Source: Ignavibacteria bacterium | GTDB lineage: Bacteria; Bacteroidota; Ignavibacteria; Ignavibacteriales; Ignavibacteriaceae | NCBI GenBank assembly: GCA_017302895.1 | Contig: JAFLBV010000001.1 | Span: 1,721,001-1,785,000, forward strand | Length of the DNA stretch: 64,000 nucleotides | Reading direction: 5' to 3' | Shown: positions 18,300 through 43,066 of the stretch, piece by piece | Layout: every line of letters begins with the position of its first letter | Position numbering within the stretch: position 1 is the first letter of the stretch | The notes under the pieces: model-generated | The model's input: the letters and a program-made list of their open reading frames with translations, nothing else | Told to the model about the DNA's origin: nothing | Database searches by the model: none | Program-made: the position numbers and the translations under genes

Positions 18300-18334
18300 G
18301 GTCGTCATTCGCGAGGATGACGACCTTTTTTTTT
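18300..18334 (+). terminator. Rho-independent terminator
   Basis: GGTCGTCAT pairs with ATGACGACC across a short loop and is followed by nine T. It sits 30 bases after the propeller gene stop. The stem is nearly the same as the one after nrfA at 50398. Confidence 0.92.
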
Positions 18335-18422
18335 GTAAAAATTGTACATCTGTCAGAAATCTCCTTAATAATTCTCTTTTAGTACTATTTGTTGCTACCT
18401 TCTTTTAACCGCCAGGATTGTG

Positions 18423-18465
18423 TCTCATTATGAGAATTGCAGATATTCCCTGTAGAATTATGAGA
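18423..18465. promoter_or_regulatory. Putative activator sites (TCATTATGAGA palindrome and a second half-matching copy)
   Basis: TCTCATTATGAGA at 18423-18435 is a perfect 13-bp palindrome. TAGAATTATGAGA at 18453-18465 keeps the right arm, 30 bp centre to centre. They lie about 250-280 bp before the predicted start of the sigma-54 type promoter at 18683, a usual distance for enhancer-binding proteins. The same core recurs before the next sigma-54 type promoter. Confidence 0.5.
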
Positions 18466-18682
18466 AACCGCAATTCACACCAAAAACGCAGGAAATTTAC
18501 TGCCCTGCCCTCGAAAAAATAATATCTACCTCATTTTCTGAAAAAACTGTATTTAAATGGTACAGTTGCTTATGGTTAAAATTTGTTATATCTGAAAAAT
18601 AGAAATGGCTTTTTCTTCTGATTTTGACCTTTATTGCAGTTTTAGACTGTCTGAAAAAGAAATGGTTTTTGGGCAAAATCGA

Positions 18683-18698
18683 GTTGGCACGAAACTTG
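18683..18698 (+). promoter_or_regulatory. Sigma-54 (RpoN) type -24/-12 promoter
   Basis: TTGGCAC, five bases, then TTGT, with the two key G positions 12 bp apart (18685 and 18697), as in the -24/-12 consensus. The only departure is T for C in the -12 GC. The transcript would begin near 18710. It precedes the small membrane protein gene. Confidence 0.7.
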
Positions 18699-18845
18699 TA
18701 AGTATAGAGATGCATTTAATAGAAAGTGTTTGCCGAATTGCATAACGATCTCCAAGAGATATGTGCTTTTCACCCGGTGTGGAGACTGAGAATACCACGG
18801 CAGATTACTGATCAGCTAACAGATTTTTATACGGAAACCATTTCG

Positions 18846-19256
18846 ATGAATTTAACAGATGTAACGATACTGATTGCGCAAGGAACATTTGTGGTAATAT
18901 TTGTATTCGCTCTTGGCAGTTTTGTGGCATACAAGATGAGAGGGAAGTCAACACCTGTTTATGTAGAAAGGGCAAAGGTTCAGGTTCCCTACAAAGAGTC
19001 ACCTGTGATCATTGAAGAAGATTATCAAATCTCCACGCATATTCAGTCGCATACATTTGGTGAACCTTCGGTTTCAGCTCTGACAATTGGCAGGGTGGAA
19101 CCACCTAAGATCACTTCGAAAACGGTAAAAATCAGTTCATCCAAGCCTGCTCCAAGAACTGCATCGCTCACCAGGTACAAAGTCGTTAATTATACATTTG
19201 AGAGACAGTCGCAAAGTGTGGTTGAAAGGCCGAACATCAACACCAACTGGTCATAA
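18846..19256 (+). CDS. Small single-pass membrane protein of unknown function, sigma-54 controlled
   Basis: 136 residues from the ATG at 18846: a short N-terminus, one membrane helix (about 5-30, LIAQGTFVVIFVFALGSFVAYKM), then a basic/polar tail of about 100 residues with many Ser, Lys and Val. I chose this start because the longer version (GTG at 18726) adds 40 residues of unusual composition before the helix. The longer form remains possible, as it starts 16 bases after the predicted transcript start. It shares its type of promoter and upstream palindrome with the following surface-protein gene, so the two may act together. No family is recognised. Confidence 0.55.
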   Translation: MNLTDVTILIAQGTFVVIFVFALGSFVAYKMRGKSTPVYVERAKVQVPYKESPVIIEEDYQISTHIQSHTFGEPSVSALTIGRVEPPKITSKTVKISSSKPAPRTASLTRYKVVNYTFERQSQSVVERPNINTNWS

Positions 19257-19292
19257 CGACTTAATAATTTTTAGATCCGGTCCCCGGAATTA

Positions 19293-19326
19293 AAGGCTTC
19301 TCGTGATAACGGGGAGCCTTTTTTTT
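19293..19326 (+). terminator. Rho-independent terminator
   Basis: AAGGCTTC pairs with GGAGCCTT (one G-U-type mismatch region) and is followed by a run of T. It closes the small membrane protein transcript before the upstream region of the surface-protein gene. Confidence 0.85.
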
Positions 19327-19327
19327 G

Positions 19328-19478
19328 TATCATAATGAGAATAAACAAATATTTCCACAAATAACCGTATACAATTGAGAAATCCCCCTTTCATTCATTT
19401 TACTGAATAATCAGGGGCATTTTTACACCCCAAATCCACTTCCCAATCCGTCGACAAATAAAATGCTTCATAATGAGA
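19328..19478. promoter_or_regulatory. Two TCATAATGAGA putative activator sites before the surface-protein gene
   Basis: TCATAATGAGA occurs at 19330-19340 and 19468-19478 (same 11 bases twice). It matches the TCATTATGAGA core upstream of the neighbouring sigma-54 type promoter except at the central base. The sites lie about 290 and 155 bp before the predicted transcript start. The rest of the 405-bp gap holds the terminator, the promoter and no convincing gene. Confidence 0.5.
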
Positions 19479-19599
19479 CACTTTGTGCCGTAATTACAAA
19501 TTTAAATTCAGGCAAAATCAGAAGCGTTACATATTCGATATTCAGCCTGAAAACGAAGGAAAAATGCAGAAAACAAGCTAAAAACGAAGAAAATTTCTG

Positions 19600-19615
19600 T
19601 TGGCACAATTATTGC
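19600..19615 (+). promoter_or_regulatory. Sigma-54 (RpoN) type -24/-12 promoter, consensus match
   Basis: TTGGCAC, five bases AATTA, then TTGC: both GG and GC elements are intact with 12 bp between the key G residues (19602 and 19614). The transcript would start near 19627, 35 bases before the ATG of the large surface protein. Confidence 0.85.
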
Positions 19616-19661: not shown

Positions 19662-22600
19662 ATGAAAACAGCGAAAACTTTGATAAACAGCGCGATCCTC
19701 GTGATCCTGTTTACTTTCGTTTCTGTTGGGAATCTTCAAGCCCAGGGATCGTGCAATCTGAACGGATTCATGACCTATACACAGGGCGGATGGGGAAGTC
19801 CTTCCAACAGCACCCCGGGTGGAATACGAGATGCATACTTCAATGCAGTTTTTCCATCGGGCGCAGTAATGGGCGGCAATTTTACTGCCTCGTTTACAAG
19901 TGCGTCAGCAGTAAAAGATTTCCTGCCTCAAGGTGGAACCTCTGCAGCGTTTAATGCGAATTACAGCAATCCAACCTCAACTTCCGCAGGGGTTCTTGGC
20001 GGACAGGTAATGGCGCTTCTTCTTAATGTAAAATATGATGAAGCGGGATACCTTGGAACCAATCCTTTGAAGCTAAAAGATCTCGTTATCACGACGGGTA
20101 CTTTCGCAGGAAAAACTGTCAGTGAGTTCCTGGCAATTGCCAACACCAAGATTGGCGGTGGAAGCTCTCCTTACACATTTTCTCAAATCAACGATGCCGC
20201 AACTTCGATAAATGAAAACTTTGATAACGGTACAGTTAATCAAAATTTCCTTACATGCCCGACTACACCACCAGCACCGGCATCACTCGGTGACAAAGTA
20301 TGGAATGATGCAAATCAGAATGGTATTCAGGATAACGGCGAAGCAGGAATCGCAAATGTAACAGTAAAACTTTACACCTCGGCAAATGTACTTGTCGGCA
20401 CAACAACCACAGACGCCAACGGCAACTACAGCTTTACCAATCTTTCAGCAGGAACATATTTCGTTGAATTCACAAAGCCATCAGGTTATACTGCATCACC
20501 AAAAGATGCCGGATCAGATGACACAAAAGATTCAGATGCGGATGTTACAACCGGAAAGACCGGAAACTATACATTAGTTGCCGGACAGAACAACATCACA
20601 GTTGATGCCGGATTTTATGTAACACCACCAGCACCTGCATCACTCGGTGACAAAGTATGGAACGATGCAAACCACAACGGCATTCAGGATAACGGCGAAG
20701 CCGGTATCTCGAATGTTACCGTTAAACTTTACACTTGCGATGATAACCTCGTAGCTACCACATCAACAGATGCCTCCGGCAACTACCTCTTCTCTAATGT
20801 TCAACCCGGAAGCTACTATGTAAAATTCAGCCAGGTTACAGGATTTATCTTTACAACCAAAGATGCCGGATCAGACGATGCTTTGGATTCGGATGCTGAT
20901 CCTTCAAACGGTAAAACTGCTTGTTTCACACTTGCAGCAGGTGAAAACAAAACAACAGTTGATGCAGGTCTCTATGTAAACTTCATCACCATTGGTGACA
21001 AGGTTTGGAAAGACCTCAATAATGATGGTATTCAGGATGCAAATGAACCCGGAATCCCCGGCGTGACAGTAAAACTTTACGACTGTAACAATACTCTGAT
21101 TACTACCACTGTAACCGATGCAAACGGAATCTACCAGTTCTGCTGCAGCATTGGCGGGGGAAGTTACTATGTTGAATTCGTTCTCCCTTCCGGTTATGTT
21201 TTCTCACCAAAAGATGCCGGATCTGATGATACAAAAGATTCAGATGCAGATGTTACAACCGGAAAGACCGCCTGCTTCAATATTTCAGGCGGACAGACCA
21301 ATCTTACACTTGATGCCGGAATTAACCAGCTTCCTGTAAACATTGGTGACAAGGTATGGAACGACATCGACAAAGACGGTGTACAGGACAACGGCGAAGC
21401 AGGTATTCCAAATGTTACAGTTAAATTATATAACTGCCTCGGAGTTCTTGTTTCCACAACAACCACCGATGCAAACGGACTGTATCACTTCAACAACATC
21501 CCTGCAGGCGATTACTATGTTGAATTTACAGCTCCTTCAGGTTATGTATTTTCTCCTCAGAATCAGGGTTCAGATGACAATGCTGACTCTGATGTTGATC
21601 CTTTAACAGGAAAAACAGCATGCAAAACATTTGTTGGCGGAACAACCGACAATTTAAACGATGCAGGTCTCTATTACGGAGCAGCAGATCTTCAGATCAC
21701 AAAAACCGTAAACAGCTCAACTTTGACCTGCGGACAGAGCCTCACTTATACAATCACAGTTACCAACAACGGACCTGCCGATGCGGGCAGCATAACTGTA
21801 AGTGACATACTTCCTGCAGGACTTCTCTATGTATCAGCAACTGCTTCACAGGGAGCCTACACATCAGGTACAGGAAACTGGACTGTTGGAACTCTTACGA
21901 ACGGAAGTTCAGCTACTCTTACAATTGATGTAACAGTTGACTGCTCAGCAATGAACAATGCAAATATCGATCTTGGACCAGCCAGACCGTACAATGTATT
22001 TGTTCTTGAAAACATTATTCAGCCATCTGCAGATACCGAAGGTAAACTTGCAGTTGGTGGAAATGCAAACCTGTCAAACTACAGTGTAGGCGACAAACTT
22101 CCAAACTCAAACGGAGCAGAGGATGTTCTGGTTGTTGGCGGAAACCTTTACTACACAAGTGGTCGTGTTTACAATGGTAATGTAGCTTACGGCGGTCTTA
22201 CAAATCTTCCAATATCAGCCGTTTCAATAGACGAAGGCACTTTAAGACATGACGCTTCAGTAATCGACTTTGCCGCAGCAAAGACTCATCTTGAGAACCT
22301 CAGCACACAGCTTAGCGGTTATGCGGTAAACGGAACCACCACTTTCCAGTGGGGTACTGTGAACCTTACACACAATGATCCTTATCTTAATGTGTTTACA
22401 GTTAACGGCAGTGATCTTAATGCAGCCCATACATTCGAAATAAATGTACCAAACGGTTCAGCAGTAGTGGTCAATATCCTAGGAACAACAATCAACTGGC
22501 ATGGTGGATTGTTCGTTAACGGTACTGCGATGAACAATGTACTTTACAACTTCCCGCAGGCAACTTCCCTTACAATCTCGGGAATAGATGTAAAAGGATC

Positions 22601-24050
22601 GGTTCTTGCACCTCTCGCAGCACTTAACTTCCCTGCAGGTATCATAACCGGACAGACGATTGTTAAGTCGATGACAGGAAGCGGACAGTTCAACCTCGCT
22701 CCGTTCCTTGGAAACATCCCTGCCAATCAGAGCATCGTGAATGTTGCTTCGATCACAGGTTCAAACATCTCTGATCTCAACACAGCCAACAATACTGCAT
22801 CCGCTGTAGCTAATTTCCCATCAAACGGTGGTGGAAGTGGCGGCGGTACAGGTGGTGGCTCCGGATCAGGTAACTGGCAGCAGATCGGTAACATACCTTC
22901 AGGTCAGGTTGTTACATGTCTCGAATCAGACAACCTCGGCAATATCTATGCAGGTACTGCAAGTGGATATATCTACAAGAGAACCGGCAACAATCCAAAC
23001 TGGGTACATGTTAACCCGCTGGTTTACTCAGGCGCAGTATGGGCAATTGAAACCCATCCTAATGGTACACTTCTTGCAGGAACCGTGACAGGTGTTTACA
23101 TTGGAACCAATAACGGAACCGCATGGACACTCAGCACACTTCAATACAAAGATGTCCGCACAATCAGGATAGACGCTCTTGGAAATGTATTCGCAGGAAC
23201 CTGGGGACAGGGAATGTATGTCTCCAACAATTGTGGACTTACATGGACACAGTCGAATACAGGACTTGGAACACACCTTATTGTAACGGGAATAACTGTA
23301 ACAGCCAACAACACAGTATTTGTCGGTACATTCGATGGTGGAGTCTTCAAATCAGTTGATCATGGAGCCAGTTGGGTATCACAGACTGTAGGATACAACT
23401 ACATCTGGGCAATGGCTTCGAACTCAAACGGTGACATCTTCGCCGGAACTTATGGTGACGGACTTTACCGCTCAACCAACGGTGGAACAAGCTGGACCAA
23501 AACAAGCTTCCCCGGAACATATGTATACGAGCTCAGAATAGATGCAGCAGACAATGTATTTGGTGCTTCTTATTCAGGTGGTGTTTTCGCTTCGACCAAC
23601 AACGGAAACACATGGTCGAGCATCGGTATGGGAGGATTTGGATTAAGCTCACTCCTTATCGTTTCAAACGGCAGCACACCTGACGGAATGGGAACCGGAA
23701 AAATCTACACAGGAACAGCAAATGGATCGATCTACATGGCTGTTTCAGGTGTTACAGATGTGAAATCAGAAAAGACTGAGATTCCAACACAGTTCAATCT
23801 TTCACAGAACTATCCTAACCCGTTCAATCCTTCTACAAGAATCAATGTAAGCATACCAAAAGATGGATTCTATGAAGTGTCGGTATTCAGCATCACCGGT
23901 GAACTTGTAGCAAAACTTGCAGCAGAGCAGCTTACGGCAGGTGTTCATTCACTTGACTTCAATGCTTCAAATCTGCCTTCAGGTATCTATATCTACAGAT
24001 TGACCGGAAACGATGTAAGCATCACCAGGAAAATGACTTTAATGAAATGA
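19662..24050 (+). CDS. Giant T9SS surface protein: SdrD-B repeats, DUF11 with inserted choice-of-anchor A domain, propeller, sorting tail
   Basis: 1462 residues. Order: signal peptide (1-28), an unrecognised domain (about 30-200), four SdrD/Cna-B-like repeats starting near 206, 325, 442 and 560 (each with a GDKVW...NGIQD..E.GI..V.VKLY opening), DUF11 from about 675, a choice-of-anchor A-like domain (about 766-1024) with [12 protein letters not shown], then the last DUF11 strands ([16 protein letters not shown]), a Gly/Ser linker (about 1055-1070), a BNR/ligand-type propeller (about 1072-1366) and the T9SS tail with [10 protein letters not shown]. The likely role is adhesion or a surface layer; the repeats probably bind calcium through their D-rich GSDDxxDSDAD segments. 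It is driven by the sigma-54 type promoter at 19600. Confidence 0.9.
20279..21680 (+). repeat. Four in-gene repeats of about 350 bp encoding SdrD-B-like domains
   Basis: Units begin near 20279, 20636, 20989 and 21340. The segment for [14 protein letters not shown] and TTGKT is nearly identical in DNA between the first unit (about 20505-20565) and the third (about 21211-21270), showing recent exchange or duplication, while the second and fourth have drifted. Confidence 0.85.
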
Positions 24051-41058: not shown

Positions 41059-41314
41059 CTATTTTAAAGGGTCAATTTTAAAAACGGGCTCACCTTTATT
41101 CGTAGATACCAAATTGTATTTCTTTCTAAAATTTCCAACTTACTTATTTTGAAAAAAAGGAAATCCATAATAAAACGAGCATGTTCAATCATTATGATGC
41201 TCTTAAACATAATTCAAGTTATTGTGGAAATTTTCGAATGGAGCCATTTGAATGCTGCTTTTGGTTTTGTCTTCAAATACCAAATAATTCTGATTAACTT
41301 TATATTATTCAGAA

Positions 41315-43066
41315 TCAAATATGTGGAATATCAAACTGTTTAATTGCCTTGATGTAATCATCGTAGCACTTATTAAATTTTTCGAAAGACAAAACAGAAA
41401 TGTATGTATTTAGAAAATTTCCCACTGAATATGGATCATTATGATTGATTATCCTAATTAAGTCCAATGCCACCATTTTCGATTTATCTGGCAAAGTGTC
41501 AAATTTATTAAGAATACTTTCCTTTCCATTTTCTGGAAGGAAAAAACACATATAATTAAAATTTAAATAGCAGCTTGCTAGCATAATTATCTTCGCATCA
41601 CAAGGAGTGAAAAATTCAAAATTCTCCAGTTCCTTCGAACAAAGAAAGAGATGTTCTCGGCCGAATTGTTCCATATCAATATTATGTTTTCTGGGCACAT
41701 TAGTACAAAAAATATCAGAGATTAGGTTGATTAGCCTATAAGCTACAATGTTTATATCTTTTTTATTCTTGAATAATGCAAAAACCTTATTATATCTATC
41801 TGCGATTAGAGCAAAACTCATTCCCTTTGCGACTAGTCCAACACTTATTACTTCTTTCCCCTTAATTTTTAGTTCTACCTCATTCAATTCTGAATTATAA
41901 GAAACATGATAAGGTCGAGTTAGACCAGGTTCTACAGAGAACTTAAAATTATATCTATTAAGTTTTTCATTGTTAAACATTCTTATTACTCTTAAGTCAT
42001 TCAGAATCTTAACAATTTTGTCAAAACTTGCTTTACAACAATTATTGTAAAATCTCTCTGACCCACACTTGCATTTTCCCTCATAATTTGGAAATTGAAC
42101 TTTCGATGATAATTCTTCAGATATTGAATCCATACCAATAGTCATATAACTGTCTGGACCTTGAGATTTAAACTCAATCATTTGAGACCCATCTTCTTTT
42201 GTGACAAAACCCAAATTACCATTGTGGATAGAATAATTGCCTGGTAATAATTTAGAACTCCCATCTTTTTTGTTTAATCTGACCACATTATCCATCCCCA
42301 AGTTAATTACCCCACCTTTGACAAAAATACCATAATTTGCTTCTGAAATCATTGTTTCACCTTTTGGAAGTTCAATGCTCTCTCGTCCATTATCTACTCG
42401 AAAACCATCCGATGTATTCCCTAAAACTGATACGCCGTTATATCGTAAATTGATTTCTTCAACTGAAATTGTATTCGGTGCGAGAACGGTTAGCTCCAAG
42501 AGTTTTTCTTCATTCTCATTCCAAATGCTAAATCTGTTTTTTTTATTTTCAAAATCAAGTACGGTGGAAAAAACATTTAATTCGTTATTGATGATCGCCG
42601 CGACAAATTCATTATTACCATCAAAAAAAGATGCATTTATTCGAAACGGAGCTTCTTTTGCTTCAGGTGGAAGTATCTGAAGAATTACTTTGTCATCAAT
42701 CTCAATTATTGATTTGGCATTGCTGAAAATTGTGTCTCCAATTTTGATCTTTAAGACTTTAGCATTTCCAACAAAAAGTTTATGAGTTGCAGAGCCTTGA
42801 TTCTTGACTATCGGGTTTCTTTTTGCCTCCCAAACAGTCGATTTGGCTATTAGTTCTTTGGTGACATTTGCATGACATCCTGGACAGAGTATTGTCATCT
42901 TATTCGGATCATGTTCAAGTGCATCTTTGAACTCAGGTTCAATATGTTCATATTCAATTATGATGTTTCCGCATATTACACATCCATAACCAGCTTCTTT
43001 TCTAAGTAATCTTCGGATTTCTGGTGGTATATATCTGCTCAGCCCAAATCGATTTTCTTCAGCCAT
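41315..43066 (-). CDS. HNH-type protein with SEC-C motif (putative nuclease)
   Basis: 583 residues. Residues 29-68 form a Cys-rich HNH motif: CVICG, EYEHIEP (His41), then CPGCHANV (Cys61, Cys64, His65). A beta-rich region (about 100-320) follows. A SEC-C zinc motif, CKCGSERFYNNCC, is near residue 331. The C-terminal 240 residues are helical and unrecognised. HNH proteins cut nucleic acid with a metal; SEC-C pairs with nucleases or metal handling. The gene is clearly AT-richer than its surroundings. I see no partner gene in operon. Nuclease activity is inference. Confidence 0.7.
   Translation of the reverse strand: MAEENRFGLSRYIPPEIRRLLRKEAGYGCVICGNIIIEYEHIEPEFKDALEHDPNKMTILCPGCHANVTKELIAKSTVWEAKRNPIVKNQGSATHKLFVGNAKVLKIKIGDTIFSNAKSIIEIDDKVILQILPPEAKEAPFRINASFFDGNNEFVAAIINNELNVFSTVLDFENKKNRFSIWNENEEKLLELTVLAPNTISVEEINLRYNGVSVLGNTSDGFRVDNGRESIELPKGETMISEANYGIFVKGGVINLGMDNVVRLNKKDGSSKLLPGNYSIHNGNLGFVTKEDGSQMIEFKSQGPDSYMTIGMDSISEELSSKVQFPNYEGKCKCGSERFYNNCCKASFDKIVKILNDLRVIRMFNNEKLNRYNFKFSVEPGLTRPYHVSYNSELNEVELKIKGKEVISVGLVAKGMSFALIADRYNKVFALFKNKKDINIVAYRLINLISDIFCTNVPRKHNIDMEQFGREHLFLCSKELENFEFFTPCDAKIIMLASCYLNFNYMCFFLPENGKESILNKFDTLPDKSKMVALDLIRIINHNDPYSVGNFLNTYISVLSFEKFNKCYDDYIKAIKQFDIPHI

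Follow-up and report, generated by a model that had tools for sequence, protein, structure and literature searches.

A predicted sigma-54-dependent extracellular-matrix regulon in an Ignavibacteria bacterium and its relatives

Two sigma-54-type promoters with shared upstream palindromes

Here we analyse a 64,000-nucleotide stretch of the 3.98-Mb genome of an Ignavibacteria bacterium (G000:C1:1721001-1785000; hereafter the window) and, within it, two neighbouring genes encoding a small membrane protein and a giant surface protein. An earlier note on this DNA had placed a -24/-12 promoter element with 12-bp phasing before each gene and copies of a palindrome, TCAT(T/A)ATGAGA, further upstream. 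The locus contains the following features (aa, amino acids; T9SS, type IX secretion system).

18300..18325, + strand: terminator-like hairpin ending the upstream T9SS-cargo gene; 11-bp stem, then T9
18421..18437, no strand: predicted activator site D1, TGTCTCATTATGAGAAT; matches the 13-mer palindrome exactly and the 17-mer described below with 2 mismatches
18451..18467, no strand: weak twin site D2, TGTAGAATTATGAGAAA; 30 bp from D1
18684-18699, + strand: promoter D, the -24/-12 element before the small membrane protein gene, TTGGCACGAAACTTGT; -12 element TTGT, one mismatch
18846..19256, + strand: protein of 136 aa that spans the membrane once near its N-terminus; start ATG 18846, alternatively GTG 18726
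19292..19321, + strand: terminator-like hairpin between the two transcription units; 13-bp stem and T-run
19326..19342, no strand: predicted activator site E1, TGTATCATAATGAGAAT
19464..19480, no strand: predicted activator site E2, TGCTTCATAATGAGACA
19600-19615, + strand: promoter E, the -24/-12 element before the giant surface protein gene, TTGGCACAATTATTGC; exact consensus
19662..24050, + strand: 1462-aa secreted adhesin; signal peptide, SdrD B repeats, DUF11, choice-of-anchor-A/pAdhesive_15, propeller-like repeats, T9SS type A sorting tail

The sequence observation behind the note is confirmed. Both promoter elements are present, with a GG-to-G(C/T) spacing of 12 bp at 18684 and 19600 alike; the first had been placed one base off, and its -12 element reads TTGT. 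The three palindrome copies (18425, 19330 and 19468) and a partial copy at 18455, GAATTATGAGA, lie where the note had them, with window palindromes approximately 132-270 bp from their promoters. Since terminator-like hairpins at 18300 and 19292 precede both genes, the promoters are each able to act independently. An Rfam scan of the region returned nothing above threshold. Palindromes of the form TCATWATGAT at window positions 41187-41199 and 41434-41446 resemble the motif; no -24/-12 element was noticed nearby, and they are probably chance occurrences.

The open reading frame of the small membrane protein had been called as 176 aa from GTG 18726; the ATG at 18846, giving 136 aa, is the more likely start. 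The 136-aa protein has no Pfam match. The 1462-aa protein carries at its C-terminus the sorting tail of T9SS type A cargo (Por_Secre_tail, residues 1384-1458, 49.5 bits), and its signal peptide was read by eye.

The palindrome marks six promoters genome-wide

Within the window alone, motif matches allowing two mismatches are at chance level (55 observed, 53 expected), and a genome-wide test was therefore needed. The palindrome, TCTCATWATGAGA, has a 17-bp extended form, TGTCTCATWATGAGACA. Exact TCATWATGAGA occurs 19 times in the whole genome, compared to 4 for the reversed control, while TGGCACN5TTGC with at most one mismatch occurs 231 times against 125 for its control. When the genome was searched with the 17-mer at up to three mismatches, every site with two or fewer (8/8) was found 43-260 bp 5′ of a -24/-12-type promoter. 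Counting weaker copies, palindromes mark six promoters, two in the window and four elsewhere.

Promoter A: sites C1:56576/56599; -24/-12 element TTGGCACTATTTTTGCA
Promoter B: site C1:303922; -24/-12 element TTGGCATGCTTTTTGAA
Promoter C: sites C1:325780/325808; -24/-12 element TTGGCATGATTATTGCT
Promoter D: sites window 18421/18451; -24/-12 element at 18684
Promoter E: sites window 19326/19464; -24/-12 element at 19600
Promoter F: site C2:819843 and a weak twin; -24/-12 element TTGGTACGGTTTTTGCA

The eight sites thus all belong to these six promoters, at odds with the random scatter that the note had said would refute it. Among clusters of the 13-mer (at most one mismatch), 5 of 14 have, no more than 300 bp off, a -24/-12 element (at most one mismatch) that faces away from them (per-cluster p = 0.017, binomial ~3e-6); most remaining exact 11-mer matches are intragenic and lack such a promoter. 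The genome encodes a single rpoN (E = 1e-53), the gene that the note had said should be sought. The locus combines what is expected of sigma-54 promoters served by an enhancer-binding protein (EBP): 12-bp-phased -24/-12 elements, rpoN and EBP genes, and common upstream sites at a conserved distance.

The predicted regulon comprises an exopolysaccharide operon and giant adhesins

The genome-wide scan, which the note had suggested would yield further regulon members, recovered a predicted exopolysaccharide (EPS) operon and three more surface-protein loci. Locus A encodes T9SS cargo proteins of 1024 and 902 aa; locus B a 1089-aa protein with a thioester domain, DUF11, pAdhesive_15 and a T9SS tail; and locus F a 1636-aa protein with DUF11 repeats and pAdhesive_15, followed by a 1044-aa T9SS protein. 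The combination of DUF11 with pAdhesive_15 is found in three regulon adhesins (loci B, E and F).

Locus C begins with a KaiC-like ATPase (G000:C1:325943-327241), followed by a 964-aa TPR protein, a GT2 synthase nearest PgaC/IcaA, a 158-aa membrane protein, a deacetylase-like protein, an fn3 lipoprotein and a PAS hybrid kinase. The TPR protein probably ends in an outer-membrane barrel and is the predicted exporter, and from its gene content locus C appears to be an operon for EPS synthesis and export. The 1134-aa PAS hybrid histidine kinase that closes the operon (G000:C1:335371-338775) may feed back onto the regulon. The 136-aa window protein was considered as a paralogue of the 158-aa membrane protein, a likeness that is unsupported (E = 0.21 only).

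Because the same promoter and palindrome stand at the EPS operon and at three other surface-protein loci, the two window genes look like parts of one programme, and an EPS operon and adhesins under a common tag read as a biofilm matrix programme. The dedicated surface-adhesion regulon that the note had proposed is supported by this content and was too narrow: it includes an EPS operon, extends across the order and has a likely activator, described below.

The promoter architecture is conserved across Ignavibacteriales

Of 59 genomes from the order, 56 encode the KaiC-like protein; the named relatives found with it are metagenome-assembled genomes of Ignavibacteriaceae. Its operon is syntenic in most genomes inspected, and in every one a glycosyl hydrolase 9 gene lies 5′ of the KaiC-like gene. 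Twin palindromes 27-31 bp apart, a range that includes the D1-D2 spacing, were found in place 5′ of the KaiC-like gene in 35/51 genomes outside the genus, compared to 5.5 ± 3.3 with permuted matrices; related genomes in this count are not independent, and many genera and three families are represented. In 49 of these 51 genomes the best -24/-12 match falls at -33 to -68 upstream of the gene. The palindrome is also found 5′ of the GT2 synthase gene in other genera (L097, L099) and 5′ of a TED/DUF11/pAdhesive_15 adhesin in another genus (L096). At the sequence level, the sites, promoters, rpoN, regulon content and order-wide conservation are all established.

A kinase-EBP operon is the probable source of the activator

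As the note had stated, the window encodes no activator: the nine true full-length NtrC-type EBPs of the genome are all encoded elsewhere. One of them, L053 (G000:C1:1502820-1504196), lies in an operon (C1:1501.3-1506.1 kb) that encodes together a PAS histidine kinase, the EBP, a STAS protein and a REC-SpoIIE phosphatase. L053 has an orthologue in 55/59 genomes at 63% identity or more. The top palindrome score of the 3-kb stretch falls at the start of the kinase gene in 18/40 genomes (permuted 6.6 ± 2.8, maximum 13), where the mean score is 5.1 versus 0.3 ± 0.9. The operon seems to be autoregulated through a palindrome just 5′ of the kinase gene. Genome G049 has no L053 and has lost the sites and the promoter; G026 has neither L053 nor the KaiC-like gene. 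These patterns point to the L053 EBP as the probable activator of the regulon.

Several other EBPs were considered. The same palindrome test at the L051 kinase/EBP operon was negative, and its gene is missing in genomes G012, G016 and G035, which have the footprint; L051 is excluded as far as possible. L054 has an orthologue in only 1 of 3 genomes checked, and next to it lies a -24/-12 promoter of its own that lacks the palindrome. L057, L058 and L059 have no clear orthologues in most of the three genomes checked and have dedicated neighbours (efflux, Kdp-type genes, adjacent promoter). An EBP adjoining the KaiC-like operon in relatives was seen in only 1/18 cases.

Two further EBP loci were observed in this genome. 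At L085:7369-8855 (G000:C1, ~1.088 Mb) an EBP with its own kinase has next to it a -24/-12 element, which lies 5′ of the gene for a secreted protein of 468 aa; this may be a second sigma-54 system for surface proteins, one that lacks the palindrome. At L091:7432-10692 (G000:C1, ~0.935 Mb) an EBP and adjacent -24/-12 promoter precede genes for an apparent sodium-solute symporter and, after it, a long secreted protein.

Comparison with known matrix regulators

In the Syp biofilm system of Vibrio fischeri (SypF/RscS, SypG, SypA, SypE) the activator SypG recognizes TTCTCANNNTGMDWN (PMC10162802) and acts at four syp operons, with bmp and bal genes also SypG-dependent (PMC10804989); the STAS protein SypA is controlled by SypE, a response regulator with serine kinase or phosphatase action (PMC4517449). 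Exact matches to the SypG site occur at promoters A, C, D, E and F, and none at B. Both systems have sigma-54 promoters, the site core TTCTCA-N3-TG, an EBP alongside a histidine kinase, a STAS protein and a response-regulator phosphatase, and polysaccharide operons plus further biofilm genes as targets (here predicted). The present system differs in belonging to another phylum, in its synthase-type polysaccharide operon headed by a KaiC-like ATPase, in having T9SS adhesins among its targets and in the grouping of its regulators in one operon apart from the polysaccharide genes. The EPS operon is of this synthase type rather than carrying the syp polysaccharide gene set, and the REC-SpoIIE protein contains receiver and SpoIIE domains only, with no serine-kinase domain found that would give the dual activity of SypE.

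The PEP-CTERM/EpsH system with PrsK-PrsR-PrsT (PMC1569441, PMC9850573) likewise places sigma-54 and an activator motif 5′ of numerous genes for surface proteins and couples these to exopolysaccharide, and the TPR protein described here is somewhat similar to PrsT. However, the cargo here has T9SS sorting tails (Por_Secre_tail) rather than PEP-CTERM signals, and the PrsR equivalog (TIGR02915) was not found among the genome's EBPs (best 426 versus a cut-off of 502.6 bits). As judged from sequence, the regulatory logic matches both Syp and PrsK/PrsR, and the full defining set of neither is present. Locus C also resembles the Pga/Ica poly-N-acetylglucosamine operons in its GT2 synthase, TPR and outer-membrane barrel, and deacetylase, whereas its scores fall below the cut-offs (GT2 at 199 bits versus 422 for PgaC; 53 versus 367 for PgaA) and it also holds the KaiC-like ATPase and a sensor kinase.

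A model for the regulon and its alternatives

We consider it likely that a single sigma-54-dependent extracellular-matrix regulon, run by an NtrC-type activator, includes both window genes. In this model the kinase would phosphorylate the activator, which is predicted to bind twin 17-bp palindromes 43-260 bp upstream and contact the RpoN-polymerase waiting at the -24/-12 element, such that transcription would start. The outputs would be the EPS synthesis/export operon and a number of giant adhesins secreted by the type IX system, among them the 19662 gene product; the STAS protein and REC-SpoIIE phosphatase probably add a partner-switching layer, by analogy with Syp.

The same sigma-54 regulon could instead be run by another conserved EBP, namely L052 (NtrX-like), L055 (in an lptE-like operon) or L056, with the palindrome at the kinase/EBP operon reflecting cross-regulation. 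All three have reciprocal best matches in 3/3 genomes checked, and in G049 L052 lies at a distance of five genes from the KaiC-like operon; yet that genome retains L052 while its sites and promoter are gone, and no good palindrome was found at the operons of these EBPs in G000, making such an assignment unlikely. Many dimeric regulators use short palindromes with an odd centre, and the palindrome might serve some unrelated dimeric repressor or activator as its operator and lie upstream of sigma-54 promoters by chance. We regard this as highly improbable: the paired 28-31 bp layout, its constant offset to the -24/-12 element in many genera and the likeness to LuxO and SypG sites all fit an EBP. 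The window-only counts would agree with promoters and palindromes being chance patterns, an explanation refuted by the genome-wide association (~3e-6) and the order-wide footprint (35/51 versus 5.5 ± 3.3) and left with practically no probability.

Several observations weigh against a sigma-54 matrix regulon run by L053. Genome G033 (99% complete) has a weak footprint without an L053 orthologue, as does the incomplete G007, and in roughly one third of the order the twin sites are weak or cannot be recognised. In the window, promoter D departs from the consensus, with TTGT in place of TTGC, and the second of its palindromes is poor. The promoter control covered two EBP operons, those of L053 and L051.

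Implications

The relatives of this bacterium in the searched databases are mostly metagenome-assembled genomes. The switch to aggregated growth in such bacteria appears little studied, and literature joining Ignavibacteria, sigma-54 and exopolysaccharide was not found in the library searched. The present analysis defines a testable regulon, comprising a candidate activator, a predicted binding site, an exopolysaccharide operon and co-made adhesins, and it connects the type IX secretion pathway with sigma-54 control. A more tentative and rather doubtful proposal is that a Syp-like cassette (kinase, SypG-like EBP, STAS protein and SpoIIE phosphatase), homologous to the symbiosis biofilm switch of Vibrio fischeri and using nearly the same DNA site, runs an ancestral, order-wide matrix regulon as a regulatory module common to phyla, and that the KaiC-like ATPase would be an extra layer of control on polysaccharide synthesis. 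The shared site core and regulatory parts suggest that the logic of Vibrio Syp is either far older or has converged.
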